From Pontibacter beigongshangensis (GTDB lineage Bacteria > Bacteroidota > Bacteroidia > Cytophagales > Hymenobacteraceae), in contig NZ_VFSD01000002.1 in the NCBI RefSeq assembly GCF_014332515.1, positions 1 to 64,000 on the forward strand: 64,000 nt of DNA, given 5' to 3'. Shown here piece by piece: positions 13,193 through 25,446 of the stretch. Under the pieces are notes generated by a model. That model did no database searches. It saw only the letters and a program-made list of their open reading frames with translations, and was not told the origin of the DNA. Every line of letters starts with the position of its first letter. The stretch's first letter is position 1. The translations under genes and the position numbers were made by a program.

Positions 13193-14509
13193 ATGATCCA
13201 AAGGAATCTCCTGGCGCTCGCTCTCCTGCTCTGCACCTGCGTTTCGCTGCTGGCTCAGAAAATGCCGGCTATCAGCCAGGAAGAGACAACCCGTCTCATC
13301 AGAACGCTGAGTGCCGACGAGATGCGGGGCCGTGCCTCCTTTACGCCAGGCATAGACAAGGCAGCAGATTTTATTCAGCAGGAATTCCGGCGCATCGGCC
13401 TGAAGCCTATGGCGAGCGGCCTCCCAGGCGAAAGCTCAAACTTTAAGCAGACCTTTCAGCTGTATCGCCTCACGCCCGGCACGCCACAAGGGCAGGCAGA
13501 TGGCACAGTGCTTAACGCCGAAGACATGTTTATCAATACCAGCCACCAGCACCTCAACTGGACCACCGACACGCAGCGGCTGGTACTAACCATTGGCGAC
13601 AACCAGGAATTCAGGGAAACTTTCTCAAAAATAAACAGTCTTACCAACGATGTGCTGGTACTGGTAAACCCTGTACATGAAGAGACGTTCAGGGCATACC
13701 AGCACCACTTCCGGGCGGTTGGGGCCAGGCAGGAACTGGACAAGGGCAGCAGCAAAGTTTTTGTTTTATCAGACAAAACCGACTTTGCAGGCTATGCCGT
13801 CTCGGTTACCAACCAGGTGGAGCAGTTGCCACTGGCTAACGTGGCAGGCATGCTGGAAGGAAAACGCAAAAACGAGATCGTGGTCTTCTCCGGCCATTAC
13901 GACCACATCGGCATGGTGGCACCGGTTGCCGGCGACAGCATCGCCAACGGAGCCGACGACAACGCATCGGGTACCGCCGCCATGATCATGCTGGCCAGCT
14001 ATTTCGCAAAACAGCCCCAACCGGAGCGTACGCTTATTTTTGTAGCCTTTACGGCAGAAGAAATAGGCGGCTTTGGCTCCAGGCACTTTTCGGAGCAGCT
14101 CAACCCCGACCAGATCGTGGCCATGCTGAACATCGAAATGGTAGGCAAGCCCTCTAAGTTTGGTCCGAATACAGCCTACCTGACCGGGTTCGATAAATCG
14201 GACCTGGGCGTTCTGCTTCAGAAGCGGCTCAAGGGCACTCCCTACCGTATCTTTCCGGACCCTTACCCGGAGCAGAACCTGTTCTACCGCTCCGACAACG
14301 CCACCCTGGCCCGCCTCGGCGTGCCCGCCCATACCATTTCTTCGGTGCAGATAGACAAGGACGACACTTACCACACTGTGCACGACGAGTTTGAGCTGCT
14401 GCACATGGAGCACCTGACCAGCATGATCAAGGCCATTGCACTGGCAGCCCGAGGCATAGTAAACGGCCAAAACACGCCCACCCGCATAGAAAAGGACCTA
14501 CTACGATAA
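13193..14509 (+). CDS. M28 family metallopeptidase, exported
   Basis: 438 residues with an N-terminal signal peptide (hydrophobic residues 4-21, cleavage near LLAQ). The peptidase domain shows the M28 zinc ligands in order: H in SGHYDHIG, D in GADDNASGTAAM, the E-E pair in TAEEIGGFGS, and a C-terminal D/H region ending TYHTVHDEFELL. M28 enzymes are aminopeptidases or carboxypeptidases acting outside the cytoplasm. About 230 residues precede the catalytic core, which leaves room for a PA-like insert. Monocistronic; substrate unknown. Confidence 0.9.
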   Translation: MIQRNLLALALLLCTCVSLLAQKMPAISQEETTRLIRTLSADEMRGRASFTPGIDKAADFIQQEFRRIGLKPMASGLPGESSNFKQTFQLYRLTPGTPQGQADGTVLNAEDMFINTSHQHLNWTTDTQRLVLTIGDNQEFRETFSKINSLTNDVLVLVNPVHEETFRAYQHHFRAVGARQELDKGSSKVFVLSDKTDFAGYAVSVTNQVEQLPLANVAGMLEGKRKNEIVVFSGHYDHIGMVAPVAGDSIANGADDNASGTAAMIMLASYFAKQPQPERTLIFVAFTAEEIGGFGSRHFSEQLNPDQIVAMLNIEMVGKPSKFGPNTAYLTGFDKSDLGVLLQKRLKGTPYRIFPDPYPEQNLFYRSDNATLARLGVPAHTISSVQIDKDDTYHTVHDEFELLHMEHLTSMIKAIALAARGIVNGQNTPTRIEKDLLR

Positions 14510-14738: not shown

Positions 14739-14781
14739 GCAGCAGAAAAGGCTCCGGAGGGCCATTTTCATTAGAATAATT
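14739..14781 (+). repeat. CTCCGGAG intergenic repeat, copy 4
   Basis: Leader GCAGCAG, core CTCCGGAG, then TTTTCATTAGAATAATT. It abuts the TTGGAG terminus of the next element, so one probably inserted at the end of the other. Confidence 0.9.
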
Positions 14782-15076
14782 GGAGTGCCTTGCATATTAA
14801 GGAGTATCTATACAGCCATTACCAGTTCCACTGACCATTGTGCTGCATCAGCCTTGGCTATCGAGCAAATCTCAGTCCCTGGCTTGAGGCGCCGGGGAAG
14901 GGACTCGCTATTTAAGAAGCCCGGTGTCACGTTAGCGGCAGCCAGAGCGAGAGCGAGTCAGAATGGGGGCCCCTGCGCGAACACAGCGTAAGGGCATCGG
15001 ATAAACCGGCAGCGAAGACAGATGGAACCAATAGGTATCAGAATATCGATACCCCAATCTATGTTACACACTCCAA
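14780..15076 (+). repeat. TIR element with GC-rich interior, copy 1 (about 297 bp)
   Basis: Terminal inverted repeats TTGGAGTGCCTTGCATATT (left) and, inverted, TTGGAGTGTGTAACATAG (right). The interior shares CAGTCCCTGGCTTGAGGC, GAGCGAGTC and GCGAACACAGCG with the reverse complement of 23841-24215. No coding sequence recognised, so it is a non-autonomous mobile element or a structured RNA. With flanking repeats it fills the 741-base spacer 14510-15250. Confidence 0.7.
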
Positions 15077-15250
15077 TAACTCGGGCAAGATGCTGCGCGG
15101 CCTGGAACCCTGAAGGCAAAGCTTATCTCAGCCCCGCTCCAGTTGTAACTGCATAACTTTTTTTCTCAACCAAAAAGAATGGCCTGCGTTTTGTGTCCTT
15201 TTACTTTTCAAGCCGTAGTACCATATACAAAAAATATATTGCCACCCGCT

Positions 15251-16711
15251 ATGACACGATTAACCCTTTCCCTGTTCTTACTCTTCCTGGCCATAGTCCC
15301 GGTTGCCTTTGCGCAGGAGCCTGTATTTACCTGGGGCACTGCCATAGATCGGGAGCCGCGTGAGCTTCAGAACATGCATGTGGTGGGCATAAGCCAGGAT
15401 AGCGGCTTTTTTGCCACTTACACCGAGGAAGAAAAAACAACGCTGGAGCGCTACAACAGGCACCATCAGCGGATCTGGGCCACCGTACTGCTACCCAGGA
15501 CACCCGAAAACCAGGCCGCAGTTTACCATGATGCCATTGTGCTGCAACACAGAGTTTACATGATCTCGACCAGCCTGAAAAAAGGAACCACTACCGTATT
15601 TGCCCAGGAAATAACGGCCAATGGCAATTATGTTCCTCAGATACAACCCCTCCTGCAGGTAAAACATGCAGGCAGCCTGCACCTGGCTACCACCCGGCTA
15701 AACGATCTGCTGCTGGCCACCCTCTCCGACCAGGAAAAAAAAACAACCACCGTTGCCTTGCTGGAGGCTAACCTGAAGCCTCGCTGGGAAAGGTCCTTTT
15801 CTACCAGGGCTGTCGCCGTACAGACGCACCTGCTTGATAATGGCACTGCCTATGTGCTGGCAAAGTCGCCTCCTGCCGAAGCTGCCGCCAAAAGCTACCT
15901 GCTGTACCGCCTCAAAGACGGCTCTAAACCTGACGAAACCGCCATTGGGCAGGAAAAGCAGCGGCCACTGCAGGCCAAAATCACCACCACGGCCTCCCAG
16001 CAGGTAGTTGTAGCCGGTTACTACAGTTCTGCATCCGAACCAACAACAGAAAACCCCGTGCTTGCCGGCACTTTTTACTACAGGTTTAACCAGGAGCAGC
16101 CCCGGAAAAAGGTGACACGCTTTACCCCTTTCAGTGCAGAGGAACTGATGAAGCACAACCGCTACAGACAAGACCCAGACAGCACTAAGTGGCTCCGCCA
16201 CCTGCAACTGCAGCAACTCTTGCCGGTGCCGTATGGCGGCGTACTTGTTTTAGGAGAAGTAACGTACACGGCAGCTACTCCTGCCTCTTTGGTGCAGCAC
16301 CAGGAAGATATACTGGCCGTGATGCTGGAGGAAGACGGCAGCCCCTACTACACAACAAGCATTTACAAGAAACAAGTCAGCCCGAACAACAACGAGAATG
16401 TTGGCTCTTTTATGGCCACTACCTCCGGCAATTACCTGCAGTTGCTTTACCTCGACTTCGAGTACAACTTTACCGAAAACGACAAACTGGTGATTGCAGG
16501 AGAGAATGCCAGCAACAAGGAGCCCGTGCTGATTACTATTTTATCGAATGGGGAGCAGCAGGTAAAACCGTTGCACCGTAGCCAGACAGGGCGTGAACAG
16601 CCGCATTTCTACCTGCGCCCGTCATCTGCTTACCGTATTTCAGAGAAGGAGTTTATTATACTCGGCATCGGGCCTGGCTATTACAAATATGGCCGGGTAA
16701 GATTTCAGTAG
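15251..16711 (+). CDS. Exported hypothetical protein (486 aa)
   Basis: Not recognised. From ATG at 15251 the protein starts with a clear signal peptide (LTLSLFLLFLAIVPVAFAQ, cleaved near residue 20), which decides this start over an upstream in-frame ATG at 15179 that would precede the signal with spacer repeat sequence. The mature part is rich in beta-strand-like alternation, has no membrane segment, and may be a beta-propeller-like outer-membrane-associated or periplasmic protein. No C-terminal T9SS sorting domain is visible. Single gene behind a repeat-filled spacer. Confidence 0.75.
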   Translation: MTRLTLSLFLLFLAIVPVAFAQEPVFTWGTAIDREPRELQNMHVVGISQDSGFFATYTEEEKTTLERYNRHHQRIWATVLLPRTPENQAAVYHDAIVLQHRVYMISTSLKKGTTTVFAQEITANGNYVPQIQPLLQVKHAGSLHLATTRLNDLLLATLSDQEKKTTTVALLEANLKPRWERSFSTRAVAVQTHLLDNGTAYVLAKSPPAEAAAKSYLLYRLKDGSKPDETAIGQEKQRPLQAKITTTASQQVVVAGYYSSASEPTTENPVLAGTFYYRFNQEQPRKKVTRFTPFSAEELMKHNRYRQDPDSTKWLRHLQLQQLLPVPYGGVLVLGEVTYTAATPASLVQHQEDILAVMLEEDGSPYYTTSIYKKQVSPNNNENVGSFMATTSGNYLQLLYLDFEYNFTENDKLVIAGENASNKEPVLITILSNGEQQVKPLHRSQTGREQPHFYLRPSSAYRISEKEFIILGIGPGYYKYGRVRFQ

Positions 16712-16806
16712 CACGATGGCTCACCTGCCGAAGTGCCCTGCCTGGGGATAAACTGTGAGGGAGCTGCGCACGGTAGTACAAAGCCGGGCAACCAGAGGAG
16801 AGATTA

Positions 16807-16855
16807 AATTATTTAAATGAATCTGGGCCTCCGGAGGTTAATTGGCTGCTGCTGC
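16807..16855 (-). repeat. CTCCGGAG intergenic repeat, copy 5
   Basis: On the minus strand it follows the stop of the next gene by 5 bases: GCAGCAGCAG leader, CCTCCGGAGG, then ATTCATTTAAATAATT. Its position suits a terminator for that gene, though the T run is degraded. Confidence 0.85.
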
Positions 16856-16860
16856 CGGCA

Positions 16861-17625
16861 TTACAACGATGGCAGGTCGCTTGCCTTTACTTCCTCCAGG
16901 GTTATTTCCTGCGGCTCGTTAAACCGGCCGAGCTCAAAGGTATTATCCAGCCGCTCCAGGGAAATACGGTGTGTGGTGGCGTATATATTATAATCCTGAA
17001 AGCGGATTCCGCCCACCATTCTGGGGTTTTTGGCCTCCCAAAACTGCACCGCACCTTCCTTTTCGGGCGCATAGGCTATATAATCAAGCATGTGGGTCCG
17101 CTCATGAAACCAGCCTACCAGTTCCATTTCTTCGCCTGCTCCGTTTTTCTCGGGAGGCATCCGGAACCTGATTTTATGGTACATCTCGCCCTTCAGCTCT
17201 GTATTTCCTTCATAATCTATTTCTGAGGCATTGTTGAGGTTAAAAGGCAGTAGCGCCAGAAAAATCTCTTTCGATACAGAAGAGGCGACTTCCTCCGTCA
17301 TTTCCTGGCTCATCTTCACCTCCTGATCGTTTACCGTACGGGTGAAGCCACTGTTCTGCACCACGTCGTGCACCCGCTGCCCCGAGTGGCCCTTAAAAGT
17401 GCGGCCGTACACAAAAGCGTCTTCATGGCGCAGCACCCGATACTGCACCCCACCAGTCCGGAAGGAAATGACACCCTGCTGGTAGCCGGCATGCCCGTGC
17501 GCTTTCAGGGCGTTCTCCACCACCTGCTTCGGGTCAGGCTCGGTAGGGTCGCAGGAGAATAAAAACAGCAGCGCTGATAACATCAGCCTGGAACCGGAAT
17601 TTAAGCACTTCTGAACAACTGACAT
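16861..17625 (-). CDS. Putative lipoprotein, DUF6503-like
   Basis: 254 residues from the ATG at 17625; a further in-frame start at 17652 would add nine residues before the signal. Hydrophobic segment LMLSALLFLFSC ends in a lipobox with the cysteine near residue 25, predicting lipid anchoring. The mature part has PKQVVENALKAHGHAG, FRMPPEKNG and GWFHERTHMLDYIAYA, resembling the DUF6503 family of Bacteroidetes lipoproteins, whose function is unknown to me. Convergent with the 486-aa gene; followed by a CTCCGGAG repeat. Confidence 0.75.
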   Translation of the reverse strand: MSVVQKCLNSGSRLMLSALLFLFSCDPTEPDPKQVVENALKAHGHAGYQQGVISFRTGGVQYRVLRHEDAFVYGRTFKGHSGQRVHDVVQNSGFTRTVNDQEVKMSQEMTEEVASSVSKEIFLALLPFNLNNASEIDYEGNTELKGEMYHKIRFRMPPEKNGAGEEMELVGWFHERTHMLDYIAYAPEKEGAVQFWEAKNPRMVGGIRFQDYNIYATTHRISLERLDNTFELGRFNEPQEITLEEVKASDLPSL

Positions 17626-17845
17626 ATTTGAAGAATCTCTATAAGATACCAAAGATACAAAGAACCTTACAAAGAACAGGCACCCTGCAGTAGCAACTTA
17701 CGAATTGCCTGGCCCTGGTGTTGGGCGCCGTGCACACATGATTTGCCCGGTTATCAGCCTTTCCAGAAGCTACTGCCCAGGCTAAAATAGAGATGGCTGC
17801 ACCTGGCTTGCAGCCATAAGCCGGAGCAACAGCCCCAAACGCAAA

Positions 17846-17877
17846 CCGCACCGGCCCCTTAGGAAGAGCCGGTGCGG
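17846..17877 (-). terminator. Hairpin after yceI-like gene A
   Basis: Perfect 10-base stem CCGCACCGGC / GCCGGTGCGG, 29 bases past the stop on the minus strand. The T run after it is weak. Confidence 0.65.
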
Positions 17878-17906
17878 TGAAGGAAGCGTGTCGTTATAAA
17901 AGTTGC

Positions 17907-18566
17907 CTACTTTATAGCGGCAATAGCAAGCGACAATGTAAAGTTATCGTCGATGGCCTTGTCTCCCAGGTTATCGAAGAAGCTTTTGGAGCCATAACGG
18001 ATGTCGTATTTGGCACGGTTTACCACTATATCGGCTTTGGCAGAGGCAGCTCCGTTTTTCACGGTGATAGTAGCCGGGAACTCGATCGGGTGGGTGATGC
18101 CTTTAATGGTGAGGTCGCCTTTTACGGTATAATTTGGCTTACCGGCTGCCGCATTCTTGGCAGGCGTAAGGCTGGTAATTTTAAACGTGGAGGTCGGGAA
18201 CTTGTCTACGCTGAAGAAGTCGTCGTTTTTGAGGTGGCCGATCAGTTTGCCATTATACTCTTTGTCGGCAATGTCGGAGCAGGTAATAGAGTTCATATCG
18301 ATTACAAAAGAACCTCCGGTTGGCTTGTTGCCACTTACAAGTATTTGCCCTTCTTTCAGCTTAATGGCGCCCATATGCTCACCAGTTACTTTTTTGGCAT
18401 GCCATTTCACTTCGCTTTTTGCTGCTTCTACTTTATAAGCAACAGCTTTAGCGGGCGCTGCAGTAGTGGCTGTGGCAGCAGCGTTAGTAGTAATAGCAGT
18501 AGTGCCTGTAAATGCCGAGAACATAAACATGGCGGCAAATGACGCTAGGATTGCTGTCTTTTTCAT
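17907..18566 (-). CDS. YceI-like protein A (exported)
   Basis: 219 residues. A signal peptide (MKKTAILASFAAMFMFSAF) leads an Ala/Thr-rich linker and a YceI domain from about residue 45: YKVEAAKSEVKWHAKK, FVIDMNSI, HLKNDDFFSVDKFPTSTFKI, YTVKGDLTIKGITHPIEFPATI and KYDIRYGSKSFFDNLGDKAI. YceI proteins are lipocalin-like periplasmic proteins; some bind isoprenoids. One of three paralogues here. It has its own upstream palindrome (18618-18653), which is shared with MarR-like gene A, so the same regulator probably controls both. Confidence 0.93.
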   Translation of the reverse strand: MKKTAILASFAAMFMFSAFTGTTAITTNAAATATTAAPAKAVAYKVEAAKSEVKWHAKKVTGEHMGAIKLKEGQILVSGNKPTGGSFVIDMNSITCSDIADKEYNGKLIGHLKNDDFFSVDKFPTSTFKITSLTPAKNAAAGKPNYTVKGDLTIKGITHPIEFPATITVKNGAASAKADIVVNRAKYDIRYGSKSFFDNLGDKAIDDNFTLSLAIAAIK

Positions 18567-18617
18567 TTTTGGATTTGTTGATGACTATACTTAAAGTCTA
18601 TTATTTTTGATTACGCT

Positions 18618-18653
18618 ACAAATATATGTACATACATTTAATGTACATATATT
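18618..18653. promoter_or_regulatory. Palindromic operator upstream of yceI-like A
   Basis: Perfect 13-base inverted repeat AATATATGTACAT / ATGTACATATATT with a 7-base spacer, 52 bases before the start. 29 of 30 bases match 19971-20000 in front of MarR-like gene A. It is a likely MarR-family binding site (inference). Confidence 0.8.
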
Positions 18654-18727
18654 TTATTAAAATTTATTTTCAGCTCCACCCTACTCCCACCTGCCTGGAG
18701 CCTTCGGCGCATTGCATTGGCGGGCAC

Positions 18728-18759
18728 AAAAAACCCTGGCTCCAGTTCAGGAGCCAGGG
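18728..18759 (-). terminator. Terminator after yceI-like gene B
   Basis: Perfect 10-base stem CCCTGGCTCC / GGAGCCAGGG with a 6-base loop, followed on the minus strand by six T's. Confidence 0.9.
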
Positions 18760-18787
18760 CAACAAAAGAATAAAGGTATTATGCGTA

Positions 18788-19459
18788 TTATTTGCTGGCA
18801 GTAACATCCAGCGACACCGTAAATTCATCGGAGATAGCCTTGTCGCCGAGGTTATCGAAGAAGCTGTTAGAGCCGTAGCGCACATCGTATTGGGCACGGT
18901 CTACTTTCACGTCGGCTTTTGCCTTGGCCACCCCATTGTCAACCGAAATGGTAGCAGGGAAAGAAACCTGGTTTGTTTTCTCTTTTATAGTCAGGTCGCC
19001 TTCTACGTTGTAGTTGGGCTGTCCGGCAGTTGCATTGGCAATCGGTGAAATGTTTCTGATCTCAAAAGTAGCTGTAGGATAAGTCTCTACGCCAAAGAAG
19101 TCATCTGACTTCAGGTGGCCCACCAGTTTGCCATTATCTTCGGCAGCCGTAATATCCGTGTTTTTGATGGAGGCCATGTCGATCACAAACTTTCCGCCTG
19201 TTACCTGGTTATCGGCTACGTTCAGTTCGCCATCTTTGATATCTATAGTGCCAAAATGCTCTCCGGCCACTTTAGTTCCGTGCCACTTGGCCTCGCTCTC
19301 CTCGGCAACTACCTTATAGGTTTCGCCTTCAGCGGTAGCAGCTGCCAGTTCGGTGGTGGTTCCCTGCGTTTCGGTGGTAGCTGTGGTGCTGGAAGTGTCG
19401 TTACAGGCGGTAAGTGCCAGTACGGCAGCAAAAGAGGCTAAAATTGCGGTTTTCTTCAT
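18788..19459 (-). CDS. YceI-like protein B (lipoprotein)
   Basis: 223 residues. The first twelve residues, MKKTAILASFAA, are identical to paralogue A, but here the signal ends in a lipobox (LALTAC, Cys19), so this copy should be lipid-anchored whereas A is soluble. The YceI domain follows a Thr/Ser-rich linker: YKVVAEESEAKWHGTK, HLKSDDFFGVETYPTATFEI and QYDVRYGSNSFFDNLGDKAI. It lies 37 bases behind MarR-like gene A and is probably co-transcribed with it. A strong terminator ends the unit. Confidence 0.93.
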   Translation of the reverse strand: MKKTAILASFAAVLALTACNDTSSTTATTETQGTTTELAAATAEGETYKVVAEESEAKWHGTKVAGEHFGTIDIKDGELNVADNQVTGGKFVIDMASIKNTDITAAEDNGKLVGHLKSDDFFGVETYPTATFEIRNISPIANATAGQPNYNVEGDLTIKEKTNQVSFPATISVDNGVAKAKADVKVDRAQYDVRYGSNSFFDNLGDKAISDEFTVSLDVTASK

Positions 19460-19496
19460 TGTTAAAATTTAATTGTTGGTTAATGTTTAATGTTTA

Positions 19497-19952
19497 TTAT
19501 GATCTTATTTTATCTAAAATTCGGTTCAGTTCGCGGGCTTCCGTCTCGGTCAAGTTGGCGATGCCAGTTCCTTTGCCACCTTCGCACCCGTCCATGGCCT
19601 TCAAAAGTTTCAGGGCCTTCTCCGTTATCAGCACATCAACCGTCCGGCGGTCTTCAGAGCATTGCTTCCTGGTAACCAGTTTCTTCGCCTCCAGCCTGTC
19701 TACGATCCGGGAGGCGTTGGATGTCTTGTCCATCATCCGCTCTATCAGCAAAGTGATGGTGGCAGGCTTAGGGTGCTGACCGCGCAGGATGCGCAGAATA
19801 TTGAACTGAGGCAGTGTAAGTCCGTATGGCTTAAACAAAGCTGCCTGCTTCACCTGTAGCCGCGAAGAAGTAAATACCAGGTTTATGTAGGCCTTCTGAT
19901 ATTCGTCAATAAACTGCTCTTGTTTTATCTCGTCCTCTATTCTCACAATCAC
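19497..19952 (-). CDS. MarR family transcriptional regulator A
   Basis: 151 residues if GTG at 19952 is used; alignment with paralogue B favours GTG at 19946 (RIEDEIKQ). Winged helix in the middle: LTLPQFNILRILRGQHPKPATITLLIERM (recognition region) and ASRIVDRLEAKKLVTRKQ, then the wing CSEDRRTVDVLIT. MarR proteins are usually dimeric repressors released by small ligands or oxidation. C70s-type sensing cannot be judged from sequence. It heads a two-gene unit with yceI-like B and lies just behind a palindrome that also precedes yceI-like A, so autoregulation is likely. Confidence 0.92.
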   Translation of the reverse strand: MIVRIEDEIKQEQFIDEYQKAYINLVFTSSRLQVKQAALFKPYGLTLPQFNILRILRGQHPKPATITLLIERMMDKTSNASRIVDRLEAKKLVTRKQCSEDRRTVDVLITEKALKLLKAMDGCEGGKGTGIANLTETEARELNRILDKIRS

Positions 19953-19970
19953 CTATTTTCAAATGGCGTC

Positions 19971-20000
19971 ACAAATATATGTATATACATTTAATGTACA
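19971..20000. promoter_or_regulatory. Operator-like site upstream of MarR A
   Basis: 29 of 30 bases match the palindrome before yceI-like A; here the right arm is partly degraded after ATGTACA. It lies 19 bases before the first possible start, in promoter range. Confidence 0.75.
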
Positions 20001-20118
20001 AACAAATAACTACAATAGTTTCAAAATGAGAAAAGTAAGGCTGGGAATGGCGAGAAATTATAATGCAAGGTAAGGTTATTGCTGCTCCCGGCAGGCAAAT
20101 TCACCAGAGCCTGGGCAT

Positions 20119-20157
20119 AAAAAGCCCGTTCTGCACCTGGCTCAGGCACAGAACGGC
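20119..20157 (-). terminator. Terminator after yceI-like gene C
   Basis: On the minus strand, CCGTTCTG and CAGAACGG pair around a loop that contains extra CCTG/CAGG pairing, followed by GC and five T's. Confidence 0.85.
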
Positions 20158-20179
20158 GTTTGCGGTAATTACCCGAGGT

Positions 20180-20836
20180 TTAGATAGCCGCTTTCTGGGC
20201 GACCACATCCAGCGAGACAATGAACTCATCGTTAATTGCCTTGTTGCCCAGGTCCTCAAAAAAGTTGCTGGAGCGGTACTTAATATCAAATTTGGTTCGG
20301 TCTATCACTACATCGGCTTTGGTTGTAACCACCCCTTCTCTCACAGCAATTATGGCCGGAAACGTGATGGCGTTCGTTATACCTTTTATAGTCATGTTGC
20401 CAGTTACGTTATAGTTGAGTTGGCCGGCTACCGCATTCGCCAGCGGTTTTACACTGGTAATTTTAAAGGTGGCAGTCGGGTATTTGGGTACATCAAAAAA
20501 GTCGTCGTTGAGCAGGTGCGCTCCTACCTTGGCATTGTCGGTGCACACCAGGCTGGTCATGTCGATAACAAAAGTGCCGGCTGTTACTTTGCTTTTATCG
20601 GCAGTAAGCTCGCCACTTTTTAGCCGAAGTGTACCGTAATGCTCTCCCACTACCTTTGCGGCTTTCCACTTCAATTCACTTTTATCCAGTATAACCTGGT
20701 AGGTTTTGCCTTTGGCCGGGGGTACCACTTCCGTTGTATCAGCAGCTGCCATATTGCCCGTTTCGGATGGCATGGTTTTAAAGGACGCGAAAATAGCTAT
20801 TGCAGCAACGGCAGCAAAAAGTGTGTTCTTTTTCAT
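20180..20836 (-). CDS. YceI-like protein C (exported)
   Basis: 218 residues; signal peptide MKKNTLFAAVAAIAIFASF, then a YceI domain from about residue 45 (YQVILDKSELKWKAAK, HLLNDDFFDVPKYPTATFKI, KFDIKYRSSNFFEDLGNKAI). It is the most divergent of the three paralogues in its signal and N-terminal part. It lies 28 bases behind MarR-like gene B in the same order (regulator, then YceI) as pair A/B, showing a duplicated cassette. Terminator follows. Confidence 0.93.
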   Translation of the reverse strand: MKKNTLFAAVAAIAIFASFKTMPSETGNMAAADTTEVVPPAKGKTYQVILDKSELKWKAAKVVGEHYGTLRLKSGELTADKSKVTAGTFVIDMTSLVCTDNAKVGAHLLNDDFFDVPKYPTATFKITSVKPLANAVAGQLNYNVTGNMTIKGITNAITFPAIIAVREGVVTTKADVVIDRTKFDIKYRSSNFFEDLGNKAINDEFIVSLDVVAQKAAI

Positions 20837-20864
20837 GGGAAAGGCTGTTGATGGTTCGTTAATA

Positions 20865-21314
20865 TCAGTCTCTGATTTTGTCGAGCAGGCGATTCAGTTC
20901 ACGGGCTTCGTCTTCGGAGAGGCTCCGGAAACCCGGTTTCCCACTTACCTCCAGGCCATCCATTTCTTTGAGCAGCGCAAGCCCTTTGTCGGTAATCAGC
21001 ACATCTACGGTGCGGCGGTCGTGTTCACACTGGCTGCGGGTCACCAGTTGTTTGGCTTCCAGCTTATCCACAATGCGCGAGGCATTGGAGGTCTTATCCA
21101 GCATCCGCTCTATCAGCAGGCTGACAGTAGCCGGCTTTGGGTGCTGCCCCCGGAGTATGCGCAAAATATTGTACTGAGGAAGCGTGAGCCCGTAGCCTTT
21201 AAACACGCTGCTTTGCGCCAGCTGTAACCACCCAGCAGTGTACACCAGGTTGATATAGGCTTTATGATACTCATCCTGAAAAGTGTGTTGCTTGATCTCT
21301 TCCTCTATCCTCAT
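20865..21314 (-). CDS. MarR family transcriptional regulator B
   Basis: 149 residues, starting with MRIEEEIKQ. It is a close paralogue of regulator A: the stretch LTLPQ(Y/F)NILRILRGQHPKPAT is nearly identical, as are LLIERM(L/M)DKTSNASRIVD and DRRTVDVLIT. The conserved recognition helix suggests related DNA sites, but its own upstream palindrome (21376-21397) differs from that of A. First gene of the regulator B - yceI C unit; divergence between the two cassettes is mainly in the N- and C-terminal helices that form the dimer and ligand pocket. Confidence 0.92.
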   Translation of the reverse strand: MRIEEEIKQHTFQDEYHKAYINLVYTAGWLQLAQSSVFKGYGLTLPQYNILRILRGQHPKPATVSLLIERMLDKTSNASRIVDKLEAKQLVTRSQCEHDRRTVDVLITDKGLALLKEMDGLEVSGKPGFRSLSEDEARELNRLLDKIRD

Positions 21315-21375
21315 ACCAGATTAACTTGTTGGGGGCGAAATTTTGATGGCAGCCATCTCACTCTTGCCCCACCTC

Positions 21376-21397
21376 TAATATATAAAAATCTATATTA
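21376..21397. promoter_or_regulatory. Inverted repeat upstream of MarR B
   Basis: TAATATA / TATATTA separated by 8 bases, 61 bases before the start. AT-rich and symmetric as MarR operators often are, but unlike the site shared by the A cassette. Confidence 0.5.
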
Positions 21398-21529
21398 CTG
21401 CAAATAACTGAAAACGAATGTAATATTGCAGCAGCCTGCCTCTATTAAATTTCCATGGTCTGGCATGCACCTGATGCAACTGGTCGTAAATTCAGCCCCG
21501 GCCTGTTTGCGCCTCTGTACCAGCCCTTC

Positions 21530-22519
21530 TTACTTTAGATACAACAGCCCGTCTTTCTCGTTTATAAGCCCAAAGGGCTCCTCCTCCAGAATCAGGTAGC
21601 CGTCCAGGTCGGCAAAATCGAAGGAGCCACTCATTTGCATGGCCGACCAAATGCCGAGCGTGGTTTCTACCATACAGCCGATCATGGTCATCAGACCGTG
21701 CCGGCGGGCCTCCTTCAGCAGCCGCACCGCATTCAGGTAGCCGCCAGCCTTCATCAGCTTAATGTTAATGCCATGAAACTGGCTCCTGATCAGCTCCATC
21801 TCCACCTGGTCTGTTACGGACTCATCTGCCACAATCGGCAGCGGGCTTCGGTCTTTTATGTGCGCATAGGCCGCCACATGCGAGGCCGGCATGGGCTGTT
21901 CCACGAACAGCACACGGCGGGTATCCAGCTGCTCCAGAAAAAGCATCAACCCATCGGGATCGTGCCAGCCTTCGTTGGCGTCTATCACCAGGGGGCGCTC
22001 CACCACGCGCAGCACCTCCTGCACCAGGTCGAGGCCTTGCTCCCGGTTCACTTTCAGCTTAAGGCTCTGGAAACGGTGCAGCTGGTTCTTCTGCACGAAC
22101 TCCGCTACCTCGCCCACCTCCATAATAGGCAGCGAAAAGCAGGTAGCCTGCCGGTGCGGCGCCTCCTGCCCCAGCAGCACATGTACGGCAATGCCTTTGT
22201 GCTGACAGAAATAGTGCAGGTACGCCGACTCCACGGCAAAGCGCAGCGAGTTAACCGGCGTATGCTCGGTAAGCAGCTCCAGCAGCTCCTCCATAGACCG
22301 CACCTTGCTCAGCCCTGCCATGAGCAGCACCTGGTACTGCTTGAGCAGCAGTTCCGGTGTTTCGCCATACCGGATATTAGGCGCCGCCTCTCCAAAGCCG
22401 CTGAAAGTGCCGTCAGACACCTGCACCAGGAAATTGGTTTTCTCGTTACTGGCATTTCGGGATATCTTCCAGGTATACTTCAGTTTGAGGTGAAGGGCTT
22501 CGATGCGCCAGTTTAGCAT
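21530..22519 (-). CDS. Dipeptide epimerase (L-Ala-D/L-Glu type), enolase superfamily
   Basis: 329 residues. Muconate-lactonizing subgroup of the enolase superfamily: catalytic K-x-K in SLKLKVN, metal ligands in VIDANEGW (Asp), LFVEQPM (Glu) and IVADESV (Asp), and the second catalytic Lys in GINIKLMKAGG. Dipeptide epimerases of this group recycle murein tripeptide-derived L-Ala-D-Glu. No murein-recycling neighbour is present, so the exact dipeptide is open. Cytoplasmic, single gene. Confidence 0.9.
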   Translation of the reverse strand: MLNWRIEALHLKLKYTWKISRNASNEKTNFLVQVSDGTFSGFGEAAPNIRYGETPELLLKQYQVLLMAGLSKVRSMEELLELLTEHTPVNSLRFAVESAYLHYFCQHKGIAVHVLLGQEAPHRQATCFSLPIMEVGEVAEFVQKNQLHRFQSLKLKVNREQGLDLVQEVLRVVERPLVIDANEGWHDPDGLMLFLEQLDTRRVLFVEQPMPASHVAAYAHIKDRSPLPIVADESVTDQVEMELIRSQFHGINIKLMKAGGYLNAVRLLKEARRHGLMTMIGCMVETTLGIWSAMQMSGSFDFADLDGYLILEEEPFGLINEKDGLLYLK

Positions 22520-22660
22520 AAGTGTGAGCTATTATAAGCAGTTCAGGTGCTCAAGTTGCGTTAAAATAATTTAATTACCTATAGGTTCTCCCTGCCTTAC
22601 AGGCTGGTTTTCAGATGAAATTGTTTGTAGCAGGCAGTGCTGCTGTTGCGGCTTACCCCC

Positions 22661-23737
22661 TTACTGCTTCACGATTTTAGCCTGGTACGTAGTGTGGCCA
22701 GCTACCATCTTCACGATAAAGACACCGGCAGGCAAATCAGCAACTCCAGCCCTTAGCGATTGCTGCACCGCCTCCTGGCTTCCTGCCACACCAAGCAGCT
22801 GCTTTCCGTTTACAGACCAAACCGACAGCATTACCTTATCCAGCGCGGCCACCTGCGCCGGCAGCTCTATCGTAAGCGGTTGTTCCTTTAGGGGGTTAGG
22901 ATAAACCCGGAAGCTTTGCTTTGCAGCAGTGCCGGGGCTACTGGTTGCAACTGCTGCTGGGGTAACGGAGGCCCAGGTGGTGCCTACTCTTATCTCATCC
23001 AAGTAGGCTTTCGGGGAGTTGGTGCTGTTGCGGAGGCTTATAAGTGTGACTGAGGCTGGCCTGGTGGTGCCGCTGCTGTTGCTTACACCTTCTTCCGACT
23101 CCTCGCCTCCTAACTCCAGAGGGCTTACCCATAATGTGGCCACGGCATTGCCCGCAGCACGCATATCGTACTTCACCACCACCAGGTACGTTGTTTCATA
23201 AGCCAGGTCCAGCGGAAACTCCGTCTGGCTTGTGCTTCCGCCCGGAGCATTTTGTATGGCCAGCCTGAAGTTGTTCCTGGAGTTTACGCCTTTAATTCCG
23301 AGGCGCGCCAGGTGGGTGGTGGCGCTGCTGCCCAGGTGCAAAAAATAATCGAAGGCGGCGGTGCTGAGCTGCGTCCGGTCCAGCACCTGCAGCAAAGCTG
23401 AGTAATAGATAACGGAGGTGCCTGCCGGGAAAGCCAAGGGTGCGCTCACATCACGTGGCACATTGGCATTATCGCCGGGGAGCAGCACCTTATTACCTGC
23501 AGGGGCCTGCAGGCCAGTATAACTCAGACTACCTTCTACTATCGGAATAACGCCTGCCTTGGTATTGCTGTGGCTCGTCCAGCCATTATTGGTGGTGCCT
23601 GCAGCTTCAGTAGCACCGCCTATGTCTCCTGCTCCTTCAAACGGGTCGTAAAAAACCTGGGCGCTTGCCTGCCCGGTCATTAACATGAAACAATAAACAA
23701 GTAAGGTAGAAGTTAACTTTTGCCAGCACTGCTCCAT
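22661..23737 (-). CDS. Secreted protein with T9SS type A sorting domain
   Basis: 358 residues. An N-terminal signal peptide (hydrophobic residues about 10-26, ending ASAQ) is followed by a beta-rich region of roughly 240 residues with no enzyme motif that I recognise, then the C-terminal domain of T9SS cargo: FRVYPNPLKEQPLTIEL, VWSVNGKQLL, LPAGVFIVKMV and a final KIVKQ. The protein should cross the outer membrane through the type IX system and be cleaved or anchored. PorD-like protein at 42342-43247 is a T9SS component in the same window. Confidence 0.9.
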   Translation of the reverse strand: MEQCWQKLTSTLLVYCFMLMTGQASAQVFYDPFEGAGDIGGATEAAGTTNNGWTSHSNTKAGVIPIVEGSLSYTGLQAPAGNKVLLPGDNANVPRDVSAPLAFPAGTSVIYYSALLQVLDRTQLSTAAFDYFLHLGSSATTHLARLGIKGVNSRNNFRLAIQNAPGGSTSQTEFPLDLAYETTYLVVVKYDMRAAGNAVATLWVSPLELGGEESEEGVSNSSGTTRPASVTLISLRNSTNSPKAYLDEIRVGTTWASVTPAAVATSSPGTAAKQSFRVYPNPLKEQPLTIELPAQVAALDKVMLSVWSVNGKQLLGVAGSQEAVQQSLRAGVADLPAGVFIVKMVAGHTTYQAKIVKQ

Positions 23738-23840
23738 GTTTTTTGCTTTTGAAGGTTTTCAGTTCATTTCAGTAAGTTTTGCAGCACTTGTGGCTGCTTG
23801 TAGTTTTTTTGAGAATAGCCCCTCTGTTCAACTCGAACTA

Positions 23841-24215
23841 TTGGAGTACATAACATATGTTGGGGGATGCATATTCTGATACATCTTGGTTCCACCTGTC
23901 TTAGCCGGTGCTTGACCCAGTGCCCTTATACTATCTTGTTGCATAGTGGAAGTCTTAGCGCTCACGGCTGGGGAAGGGGCCCTCTATAAGCGGGGCCTCG
24001 TCCCTGGCCATCGGCGCTGTGTTCGCTCCTGCCAGGGGTGCAGGTGCCCCTTTTAGACTCGCTCCCGCTCAGGCTGCCTGCGGCACCGGACCTCTCAAAT
24101 AGAGGGGCCCTTCCCCCGGTGCCTCAAGCCAGGGACTGGGATCTGTGAGGTAGCCAGAGCATTTTTATAATTAGCAATAGCTATATAGATACCCCAAAAT
24201 ATGTTATGCATCCAA
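23841..24215 (-). repeat. TIR element with GC-rich interior, copy 2 (375 bp)
   Basis: Ends TTGGAGTACATAACATATG and, inverted, TTGGATGCATAACATATT. The interior has long GC-rich arms: GGGGAAGGGGCCCTCTAT near 23969 pairs with ATAGAGGGGCCCTTCCCCC near 24098. It is homologous, in reverse, to 14780-15076 and about 80 bp longer. It occupies most of the 551-base spacer and contains no recognisable coding sequence. Confidence 0.7.
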
Positions 24216-24242: not shown

Positions 24243-24287
24243 AATTATTCCAATCAAAAAGCCCCTCCGGAGGATATTCCTGCTGCT
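24243..24287 (-). repeat. CTCCGGAG intergenic repeat, copy 6
   Basis: On the minus strand, directly after the next gene's stop: GAGCAGCAG, CCTCCGGAGGGGC, five T's, GATTGGAATAATT. It is well placed to act as that gene's terminator. Confidence 0.9.
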
Positions 24288-24288
24288 C

Positions 24289-25446
24289 TTATATCTTCTC
24301 CAGCGCCTGCTCTATGTCCCGGATCAGGTATTCAGCATCTTCCAGGCCAATGTAGAAGCGCACCAGGTTAAAGGGCAATTTGGGCTTTAGCTTACCTGGC
24401 GCATAAGAGGCCGCCAACGGGAAAATGAGCGACTCATGGCCTCCCCACGAAGCAGCCATCAGGAAATGCTGCAGGCTGTTGCAGAAGAGCTCCACTTTAC
24501 CGATATCATCTGTTTTGAGCAGAATCGAGAACTGCCCGGTGTTATTGCGGAGCTGTTTTTTTGCCAGTTCGTACTGCGGGTGCGAAGGCAGGAAAGGGAA
24601 CAGCACCTGCTCCACCTTTGGCTGCCCTTCCAGCCAGGCCACCACCTGCCGGGTTGTTTCGGCTACACGGGCCATGCGCACAGGCAGGGTGCGCAGCCCC
24701 CGCAGGAGCAGCCAGGCATCGTGCGGCGAGAGCACGGCCCCAAGGGGCATAAACTCCGACACAAAAATCTTGTTCACTACCTCTCTGCGGCCACACACTA
24801 TGCCACCCATGGTGTCGGAGTGGCCGCCAATGTACTTGGTAGCCGAATGCACCACTATATCAACTCCCATCGCAATCGGGTTCTGGTTAATGGGGCTGGC
24901 AAAGCTGTTGTCTATAATGGTTACCAGGCCGTGCTCCTTGGCTATAGCCACCACCGCCTCAATATCCTGAAGCTCGAAGGTGTAGGAATTGGGGCTCTCC
25001 AAGTACAGTATTTTGGTGTTGGGCCTAATGGCATTGCGGTAGTTGGCGGCAGCAGTGCCATCGACCATGGTTACGTCTACTCCAAAGCGCGGCAGAAACT
25101 TCTGCATCAGCGCATTGGTCCAGGAGTAGGGTTTCTGCACACTCACCACATGGTCCCCAGCCCCGAGCTGCGAAAGCACTGCTGCCGATACTGCTGCCAT
25201 GCCGCTCCCAAAAGCAATGGCATGCTCGGCTCCCTCCAGCGCAGCTATTTTCATTTCGAGCATGGTCACGGTAGGGTTATTACCCCGTGTATAGAGCGTT
25301 GCCTCCGGCTCCTGCAGCATCTTTTGCCGCAGGTCCTCTACCGTGCGGCTGGCAAAGTTGCTGGTCTGTATGATAGGCGGCGCCACAGCATTAAAATAGT
25401 GCTCCCGCTCCTCCCCCAATTCATTAATGATGTACGAAATATCCAT
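24289..25446 (-). CDS. Trans-sulfuration PLP enzyme (cystathionine gamma-synthase/lyase family)
   Basis: 385 residues, fold-type I PLP enzyme of Met/Cys metabolism. PLP-binding lysine K204 lies in VVHSATKYIGGHSD; other marks are YTRGNNPTV (residues 52-60), AFGSGMAAVSA, and IIDNSFASPINQNP. The family includes cystathionine gamma-synthase, beta- and gamma-lyases and methionine gamma-lyase, which sequence alone does not separate. It is divergent from the 342-aa gene and followed at once by a CTCCGGAG hairpin. Confidence 0.9.
   Translation of the reverse strand: MDISYIINELGEEREHYFNAVAPPIIQTSNFASRTVEDLRQKMLQEPEATLYTRGNNPTVTMLEMKIAALEGAEHAIAFGSGMAAVSAAVLSQLGAGDHVVSVQKPYSWTNALMQKFLPRFGVDVTMVDGTAAANYRNAIRPNTKILYLESPNSYTFELQDIEAVVAIAKEHGLVTIIDNSFASPINQNPIAMGVDIVVHSATKYIGGHSDTMGGIVCGRREVVNKIFVSEFMPLGAVLSPHDAWLLLRGLRTLPVRMARVAETTRQVVAWLEGQPKVEQVLFPFLPSHPQYELAKKQLRNNTGQFSILLKTDDIGKVELFCNSLQHFLMAASWGGHESLIFPLAASYAPGKLKPKLPFNLVRFYIGLEDAEYLIRDIEQALEKI

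Follow-up and report, generated by a model that had tools for sequence, protein, structure and literature searches.

A pseudoknotted repeat module of Pontibacter beigongshangensis and its relatives, with two copies in short inverted-repeat elements

Two elements with terminal inverted repeats

The stretch of DNA analysed here (the window) comprises the first 64,000 nucleotides of contig NZ_VFSD01000002.1 of Pontibacter beigongshangensis (assembly GCF_014332515.1) and holds two copies of a short element with terminal inverted repeats (TIRs). A preliminary description made from the letters of the window had placed two such copies here in opposite orientation, and a reading of the sequence bears out both: copy 1 occupies 14780-15076 on the + strand and copy 2 occupies 23841-24215 on the - strand, as delimited by the sequence itself, a BLAST search of the organism's own 5.75-Mb genome (G000) and an alignment of the TIRs. 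Copy 1 is located between a peptidase-like gene that ends at 14509 (a role assigned by eye from the translation) and an open reading frame (ORF) that starts at 15179. Copy 2 lies between two minus-strand genes, one of which ends at 24289 while the next starts at 23737.

The TIRs are imperfect in both copies. Those of copy 1 (left 14780-14812, right 15044-15076, + strand) are about 33 bp long and agree in 23 of 33 aligned columns, the other 10 being non-identical. Those of copy 2 (left, on the 5' side of the element, 24183-24215; right 23841-23874, - strand) align over 34 columns with 28 identities, 5 non-identical positions and one gap. In the own-genome search copy 1 matched copy 2 twice, with E values of 5.2e-17 and 2.1e-12, one for each half of copy 1. 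As had been described, both copies start with TTGGAG or TTGGAT and share CAGTCCCTGGCTTGAGGC, GAGCGAGTC and GCGAACACAGCG; CATAACATAT, also claimed for both, is exact in copy 2 only. The loss of about 80 bp attributed to copy 1 corresponds to a measured difference of 78 bp. Both elements have a GC-rich middle, and the reported contrast with the surroundings is found as well, with a GC content of 0.65-0.67 in the cores, 0.38-0.49 in the close flanks and 0.507 in the window. Folded individually, copy 2 reaches a z-score of -4.76 and copy 1 of -2.94.

The phenomenon is real and much larger than first described. Copy 2 yielded 39 matches in G000, of which 30 were taken as loci and merged into 28 places, and the remaining nine add a few more. 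Instead of a family restricted to two copies and devoid of covariation, an outcome that the preliminary description had allowed for, there are thus at least 28 related places, several of them with internal deletions, and strong covariation. Left ends of two kinds (types A and B) occur among these places, and a third kind (type C, CTGATGTTACGCA-like) surrounds some copies in G000 and in G063, the closest relative among the genomes compared. None of the type A units, four of 324-395 bp and one of 230 bp, contains a frame of more than 90 amino acids; the longest frames of two type C units measure 112 and 103 amino acids. TIR units of type C with CTGATGTTACGCA-like ends were located at L010:1302-1738, L296:1359-1739 and L013:275-432. 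Type C TIRs enclose some copies of the structured module described below and also a 158-bp unit that lacks it.

The structured module and its covariation

The interior of the elements harbours a module of about 128 positions. It consists of a long stem with an internal loop (P1a, P1b and P1c), two side hairpins (P2 and P3), a fourth hairpin (P4) and a pseudoknot in which the P4 loop pairs with a downstream GAGxG. Copy 2 retains the full module: its core at 23955-24143 (- strand) scores 75.3 and 74.6 bits with two successive covariance models of the module, R1 and R2. The 5' strand of P1a, GTCCCTGGC, lies at 24128-24136 and the 3' strand, GCCAGGGAC, at 24000-24008, a pairing read from the sequence and backed by the two large alignments described below (A4 and A5). 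The two sides of the pseudoknot would be CGC in the P4 loop (23990-23992) and GCG (23959-23961), both on the - strand. This assignment draws on the sequence and on support from other copies, since copy 2 carries a mini-insert that leaves its pseudoknot unparsed. The core of copy 1 (14873-14988, + strand) is broken and gives no match with R1: the 5' strand of the stem and one side hairpin are kept, and the 3' strand, P4 and the pseudoknot are lost.

The mini-insert accounts for the near-perfect GC-rich stem that the preliminary description had seen in copy 2. Its two arms exist, the left one being GGGGAAGGGCCCCTC and the right one the inverse of GGGGAAGGGGCCCTC, although the string quoted for them was inexact. 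They represent two inverted copies of a GC-rich sequence of about 21 nucleotides (GGGGGwAGGGGCCCTCnAT-like, GGGGGTAGGGGCCCTCGAYAAA-like), one at 24098-24117 and the other, inside P4, at 23969-23989 (- strand). Either arm can be missing in other copies. By eye, the same sequence also occurs singly or as complementary arms in seemingly unrelated hairpin repeats (for example L230:3356, L231:1166, L238:9072, L239:14946 and L111:10724). Its dispensable arms and its presence in other repeats mark the mini-insert as a separate, insertion-like motif rather than the defining stem of the family.

The preliminary description had proposed to look for compensatory changes in more copies, and these are abundant. 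In a first alignment of 9 sequences, pairing was intact in 97.7% of the cells of 30 proposed pairs, compared with 35-46% in slid controls; four of five measures exceeded the shuffles, but the number of further pair types did not (235 of 500 shuffles were as high). Alignment A4 (94 sequences, from 84 chosen of 288 loci) has 94.9% of cells paired and 26 of 33 pairs changing on both sides, with slid controls at 40-45%. Alignment A5 covers four genera with 65 sequences, of which 32 recur as rows of A4 and 33 are new; it has 95.7% of cells paired and 29 of 33 pairs changing on both sides, with slid controls at 37-48%. None of 500 shuffles reached any of the five measures in either alignment. Entire helices are swapped between copies, as in GTCCTTGGG/CCCGAGGAC, GTTTCTCTG/CAGAGAAAC, GCCTTTCGG/CCGGAAGGC and GTTTGGCTT/AAGCCAAAC. 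P1c is hypervariable and complementary in many copies (TGATTTG/CAAATCA, TGTATTG/CAATACA, CAGAATTG/CAATTCTG), its model columns being paired in only 78-81% of cells in A4 and A5. Judged from these alignments, the covariation support for the fold appears overwhelming.

Both A4 and A5 were fitted to the covariance model and hence lean towards its structure. The pseudoknot, which the model does not contain, tests the fold independently. In 77 of the 78 parsed rows of A4, a Watson-Crick pair joins the third P4-loop base to the x of GAGxG, distributed over three pair types (27 U-A, 26 C-G and 24 G-C), whereas shuffles gave a mean of 25.9 and a maximum of 41. All 32 parsed rows among the new ones of A5 agree (21 G-C, 11 C-G), so that the variable pair is of Watson-Crick type in 109 of 110 parsed copies overall. 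Unparsed were 16 of 94 rows in A4, 12 of which by eye contain a mini-insert in or near P4, and one of 65 rows in A5. Two or more pair types coexist within 4 of 31 genomes, which indicates that the switch of this pair recurs.

Complementary arms could also arise from mutation itself, if one arm of a quasi-palindrome is rewritten from its partner by template switching. The abundance of double changes and the scarcity of intermediate states would agree with such a process, and two copies (L015 and L007) look, by eye, as if an arm had been corrected to perfect complementarity. However, template switching would hardly yield a 3-bp pseudoknot between a loop and a downstream segment whose covariation spans three pair types and holds in 77 of 78 copies, and it would hardly conserve unpaired motifs across four genera. 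We consider it a very unlikely source of the pairing.

Regarding the nature of the folded molecule, the + strand folded better by z-score in 53 of 60 cores drawn from 125 distinct ones (means of -3.2 for the + and -2.0 for the - strand). Together with the pseudoknot, this strand difference favours RNA, and we favour a module that would act at the RNA level. Wobble pairs were tried as a further indicator. A4 contains 76 G-T and 46 A-C cells over all pairs, which become 29 and 45 once one column is removed; within P1a, 7 G-T and 5 A-C cells remain without that column. P1a in A5 has 39 G-T and no A-C cells, but 33 of the 39 come from that same column. As the excess in A4 vanishes with a single column, we rejected the asymmetry as proof of RNA.

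Spread, placement and mobility

In our searches, 68 candidates per genome were scored for the genus, 17 for the family and 150 in a deeper search, which means that the counts may be low. R1 detected the module in at least 43 of the 50 genomes searched within the genus, among them G000, and in at least 67 of 200 sampled genomes of the family (the 43 within the genus and 24 outside), covering four of six genera. The genera with matches are g1, g23, g24 and g27, with none among the sampled genomes of g25 and g26; in g23 one sampled genome has the module and at least one lacks it. The deeper search of nine genomes with R2 returned at least 17 to at least 113 copies each: at least 17 in G000, at least 45 in G063, at least 22-29 in four g27 genomes, at least 78 and at least 113 in two g24 genomes and at least 64 in one g23 genome. 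In 1.2 Mb from three other species of the genus, R1 gave 38 matches that represent 37 places, one copy being split by a locus border. The density per 400 kb was 19 places in G014, 14 in G021 and 4 in G065, corresponding by extrapolation to about 220, 180 and 40 places in the respective genomes.

The module does not depend on the type A shell. Beyond G000 and G063, neither the 400-kb stretches from each of three other species nor the small loci yielded a pair of type A ends, and yet the fold is present there; shell and fold are thus separable. Two shell types, A and C, enclose the module in G000 and G063. In addition, 45 of 75 copies have their nearest neighbour in sequence within the same genome, compared with a mean of 6.8 and a maximum of 16 for shuffled labels. 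Copies thus multiply or homogenise within lineages.

The 37 places are intergenic without a preferred orientation: 17 are in convergent gaps, 17 in co-directional gaps and 3 in divergent ones. For comparison, gaps of 300 bp or more in these contigs number 182, copy-holding ones included, and are made up of 38 convergent, 94 co-directional and 50 divergent gaps. A position between genes, adjoining terminator-like repeats in G000, might be expected of a cis-acting element such as a riboswitch, a 5' leader or a terminator of the adjacent genes. However, the copies in co-directional gaps are divided between 9 in the same sense and 8 antisense, only 3 of 37 places are in the divergent gaps where leaders would sit, and the neighbouring genes vary between copies. 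Given this orientation, we rejected a cis-regulatory role, which we regard as highly improbable. A conserved neighbouring protein was likewise rejected. Among frames of at least 90 amino acids within 1.5-2.5 kb of 122 entries (a few of them duplicates), BLASTP at an E value of 1e-10 found no group of more than 5 entries, and the largest groups include frames through the element itself. Orientation-neutral placement and the lack of a common neighbour in this search make the copies unlike leaders or terminators of one gene class.

The neighbourhood also bears on the idea that the module is a trans-acting or guide RNA of use to the host, for example the multiplied scaffold of an orphan TnpB- or IscB-like nuclease. 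A pseudoknotted multi-copy fold with variable flanks would suit such a function, and scaffolds of nucleases of the IS200/IS605 type are themselves multi-copy RNAs. HEARO, RAGATH-18 and IS605-orfB motifs are multi-copy structured RNAs tied to transposons, and the module resembles them as a repeated fold of RNA type with variable flanks. It differs from them in that the loci tried gave no HEARO, RAGATH or IS605-orfB match in Rfam at E values up to 5, and in that no neighbouring protein is common to the copies examined. Moreover, sequence conservation within the genus extends past the core on both sides, leaving no fixed edge at which a guide could start. A host-useful trans-acting or guide function is in our view quite unlikely. 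RAGATH-18-derived RNAs are the subject of a separate report (PMC11061315). The window gave no Rfam match at a gathering score, and the other module loci that were tried gave none near one.

Alternatively, the fold might be a signal in single-stranded DNA, comparable to a large REP-like (repetitive extragenic palindromic) hairpin, whose pairing would be kept for recognition during replication by an enzyme of the Y1/RAYT type (RAYT, REP-associated tyrosine transposase) or a similar one. REP hairpins of about 20-40 nucleotides are repeated and intergenic, and REPINs are inverted pairs of them. The module shares with REP sequences, bacterial interspersed mosaic elements (BIMEs) and REPINs its repetition, its intergenic position, its hairpins, its occurrence in repeat mosaics and its inverted pairs. 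All 8 pairs of copies less than 600 bp apart among the matches listed are head-to-head (L306/L015, L305, L290, L316, L293, L090, L104 and G063:C20) and come from six genomes of three genera (G000, G063 with two, G025 with two, G137, G109 and G110). A signal on one strand of DNA would tolerate G-T pairs, too. However, the module is not a single short palindrome: with its four helices and its pseudoknot it takes up about 128 positions, far more than a REP hairpin. Furthermore, none of the 37 places in the three other species has a partner within 1 kb, the places examined have no gene in common, and no RAYT-like gene is linked within 1.5-2.5 kb of the 122 entries, the only regions in which it was sought. 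On balance we hold a DNA signal to be unlikely.

Directly outside many element copies lies another repeat, which is terminator-like and has the pattern CTCCGGAGG-N4-TTTT-N-ATT-NN-AATAATT. A pattern scan located it at 14752-14781 (+ strand), where its tail abuts copy 1, and at 24243-24272 (- strand), 27 bp from copy 2; it is found in the window at 775, 7619, 11961, 14752, 24243, 30375, 45778, 52634, 61490 and 61733, among others. Allowing up to 2 mismatches, there are 1,281 occurrences in G000 (control 0) and 180 in G063, with none in the remaining 97 of the 99 genomes compared. Its tail, searched by itself in 50 genomes of the genus, was counted 1,035 times in G000 and 795 times in G063, and the remaining 48 have between 0 and 3 occurrences each. 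The hairpin core is CTCCGGAGG in G000 and often CTTCGGAAGG in the G063 places listed, a paired change. Over 384 kb of contig C12 there are 111 copies at up to 3 mismatches. Called frames hold 7 of these; among the remaining 104, 69 are downstream of a co-oriented gene and 35 are not. At the 28 element places the repeat was found in the searched flank on the left at 19 and on the right at 8 with up to 6 mismatches, and on the left at 16 with up to 2; chance at the density of C12 would give about one or two places, a rough and uncontrolled estimate. The core of L314 was left out of this flank comparison as its locus runs into a contig end. Uptake-sequence terminators of Neisseria and Pasteurellaceae number about a thousand copies and form a terminator-like hairpin. 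The repeat resembles them in copy number, hairpin and species-specific core, but conservation continues past the T-tract into ATTnnAATAATT, and the 35 of 104 intergenic copies just mentioned are not downstream of a co-oriented gene.

Further repeats and genes were observed around the elements. An AT-rich repeat, TTTAATGTGCTGATG...GAAATTTGAAGATGAGAAGATTTGGAAATGAATGACC, often stands between the terminator tail and the module, for example in the 61490 region of the window and in the left flanks of L006, L014, L016, L018 and L021; it has at least 44 matches in G000 (40 candidates scored). The flanks of the module in L229-L268 are mosaics with other hairpin repeats (CCCTCCCCTAAAAACAGGGGAGGG-like, GGACAGGTCGCGACCTGTCC-like and GGCACAAGCGGACGCTTGCGCC-like). 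Between the two elements of the window, at 17907-21314, there are three neighbouring similar ORFs of about 220 amino acids, which by eye we take to be YceI-like, and among them two similar ORFs of about 150 amino acids, presumably MarR-like.

The matching sites of both copies in G063 lack the element (the correspondence of the flanking genes was judged by eye). At the site of copy 1 the terminator tail CATTAGAATAATT is kept, and at the site of copy 2 a different terminator is present. The insertion polymorphism by which miniature inverted-repeat transposable elements (MITEs) are judged is thus seen at both sites, present in G000 and absent from G063. In a further genome, G006, the gene that best matches the one preceding copy 1 has a different family member after it. 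The preliminary description had left the choice between a mobile element and a structured RNA, and both fit: the TIRs, the lack of frames above 90 amino acids in type A units and the absence from G063 agree with the former, the compensatory changes with the latter.

A selfish structured repeat as the preferred reading

We consider a selfish structured repeat of RNA type, carried here by a non-autonomous TIR element, the best explanation, with a probability of roughly 60%. MITEs are short non-autonomous TIR elements of bacteria. The elements resemble them in being short and dispersed, in their TIRs, in having no long frame in the type A units and in their presence or absence between two relatives; they differ in their cargo, a conserved pseudoknotted fold that is spread far wider than the TIR shell. 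Known kinds of elements cover single layers (MITE, REP-like repeat, structured RNA), and we found no description of this repeat family in the open-licence literature of PubMed Central, nor in either that literature or Rfam a family that combines its layers.

In terms of mechanism, the elements would be MITE-like units of about 300-400 bp whose TIRs are probably mobilised in trans by a putative transposase. Their cargo, the module, would be transcribed, with one strand adopting a well-defined RNA structure, and would belong to an intergenic repeat family that is often of high copy number, extends over several genera and is independent of the TIR shell. Selection may keep the RNA fold, so that the RNA would be bound, processed, stabilised or copied. 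Copies would accumulate where they are least harmful, between genes and above all between convergent ones, and would presumably be selfish rather than useful to the host.

Several observations weigh against a selfish repeat carried by a TIR element. The preliminary description had suggested a search for a transposase with the same ends, and neither such a gene nor an autonomous element with type A or C ends appeared when paired ends separated by at most 3 kb were sought; this search covered 617 kb from G000 and G063, the 1.2 Mb from the three other species and the small loci rather than whole genomes. The absence from G063 could equally be due to loss there. The flanks on both sides of the elements are AATAATT-like and nearly palindromic, for which reason a target duplication is inseparable from the TIR and the border is unclean. 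Intact cores are few in G000 itself, as at least 11 of the 28 places have no core recognised by R2 (17 matches). Among the best 68 candidates of each genome, no match was found in 7 of the 50 genomes of the genus, and another seven have 1-4. Of the 37 places, 9 hold copies that overlap frames of 102-244 amino acids from a simple ORF caller. Finally, the wobble pairs would speak for RNA only weakly, mainly through one column.

A bolder version of the preferred reading would be a bacterial counterpart of the short interspersed nuclear elements (SINEs) of eukaryotes. A pseudoknotted non-coding RNA would then have multiplied by its own RNA-dependent route across several genera, frequently reaching dozens of copies per genome and, if the densities above are extrapolated, up to about 200, and TIR elements would have captured it later as cargo in one lineage. 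We regard this as a speculative and rather doubtful possibility.

Dispersed RNAs of high copy number that adopt a genuine tertiary fold are characteristic of eukaryotic genomes and, to our knowledge, rare in bacteria. The recurrence of one fold across many related bacteria, often dozens of times per genome, is unusual for bacteria. As the many natural variants provide a nearly complete covariation map, the partner, the expression and the spread of the module are directly testable. Intergenic DNA appears here as a set of nested layers: the mini-insert lies in an RNA module, the module in a TIR shell, and next to the shell stands a terminator-like repeat spelled in a species-specific way.

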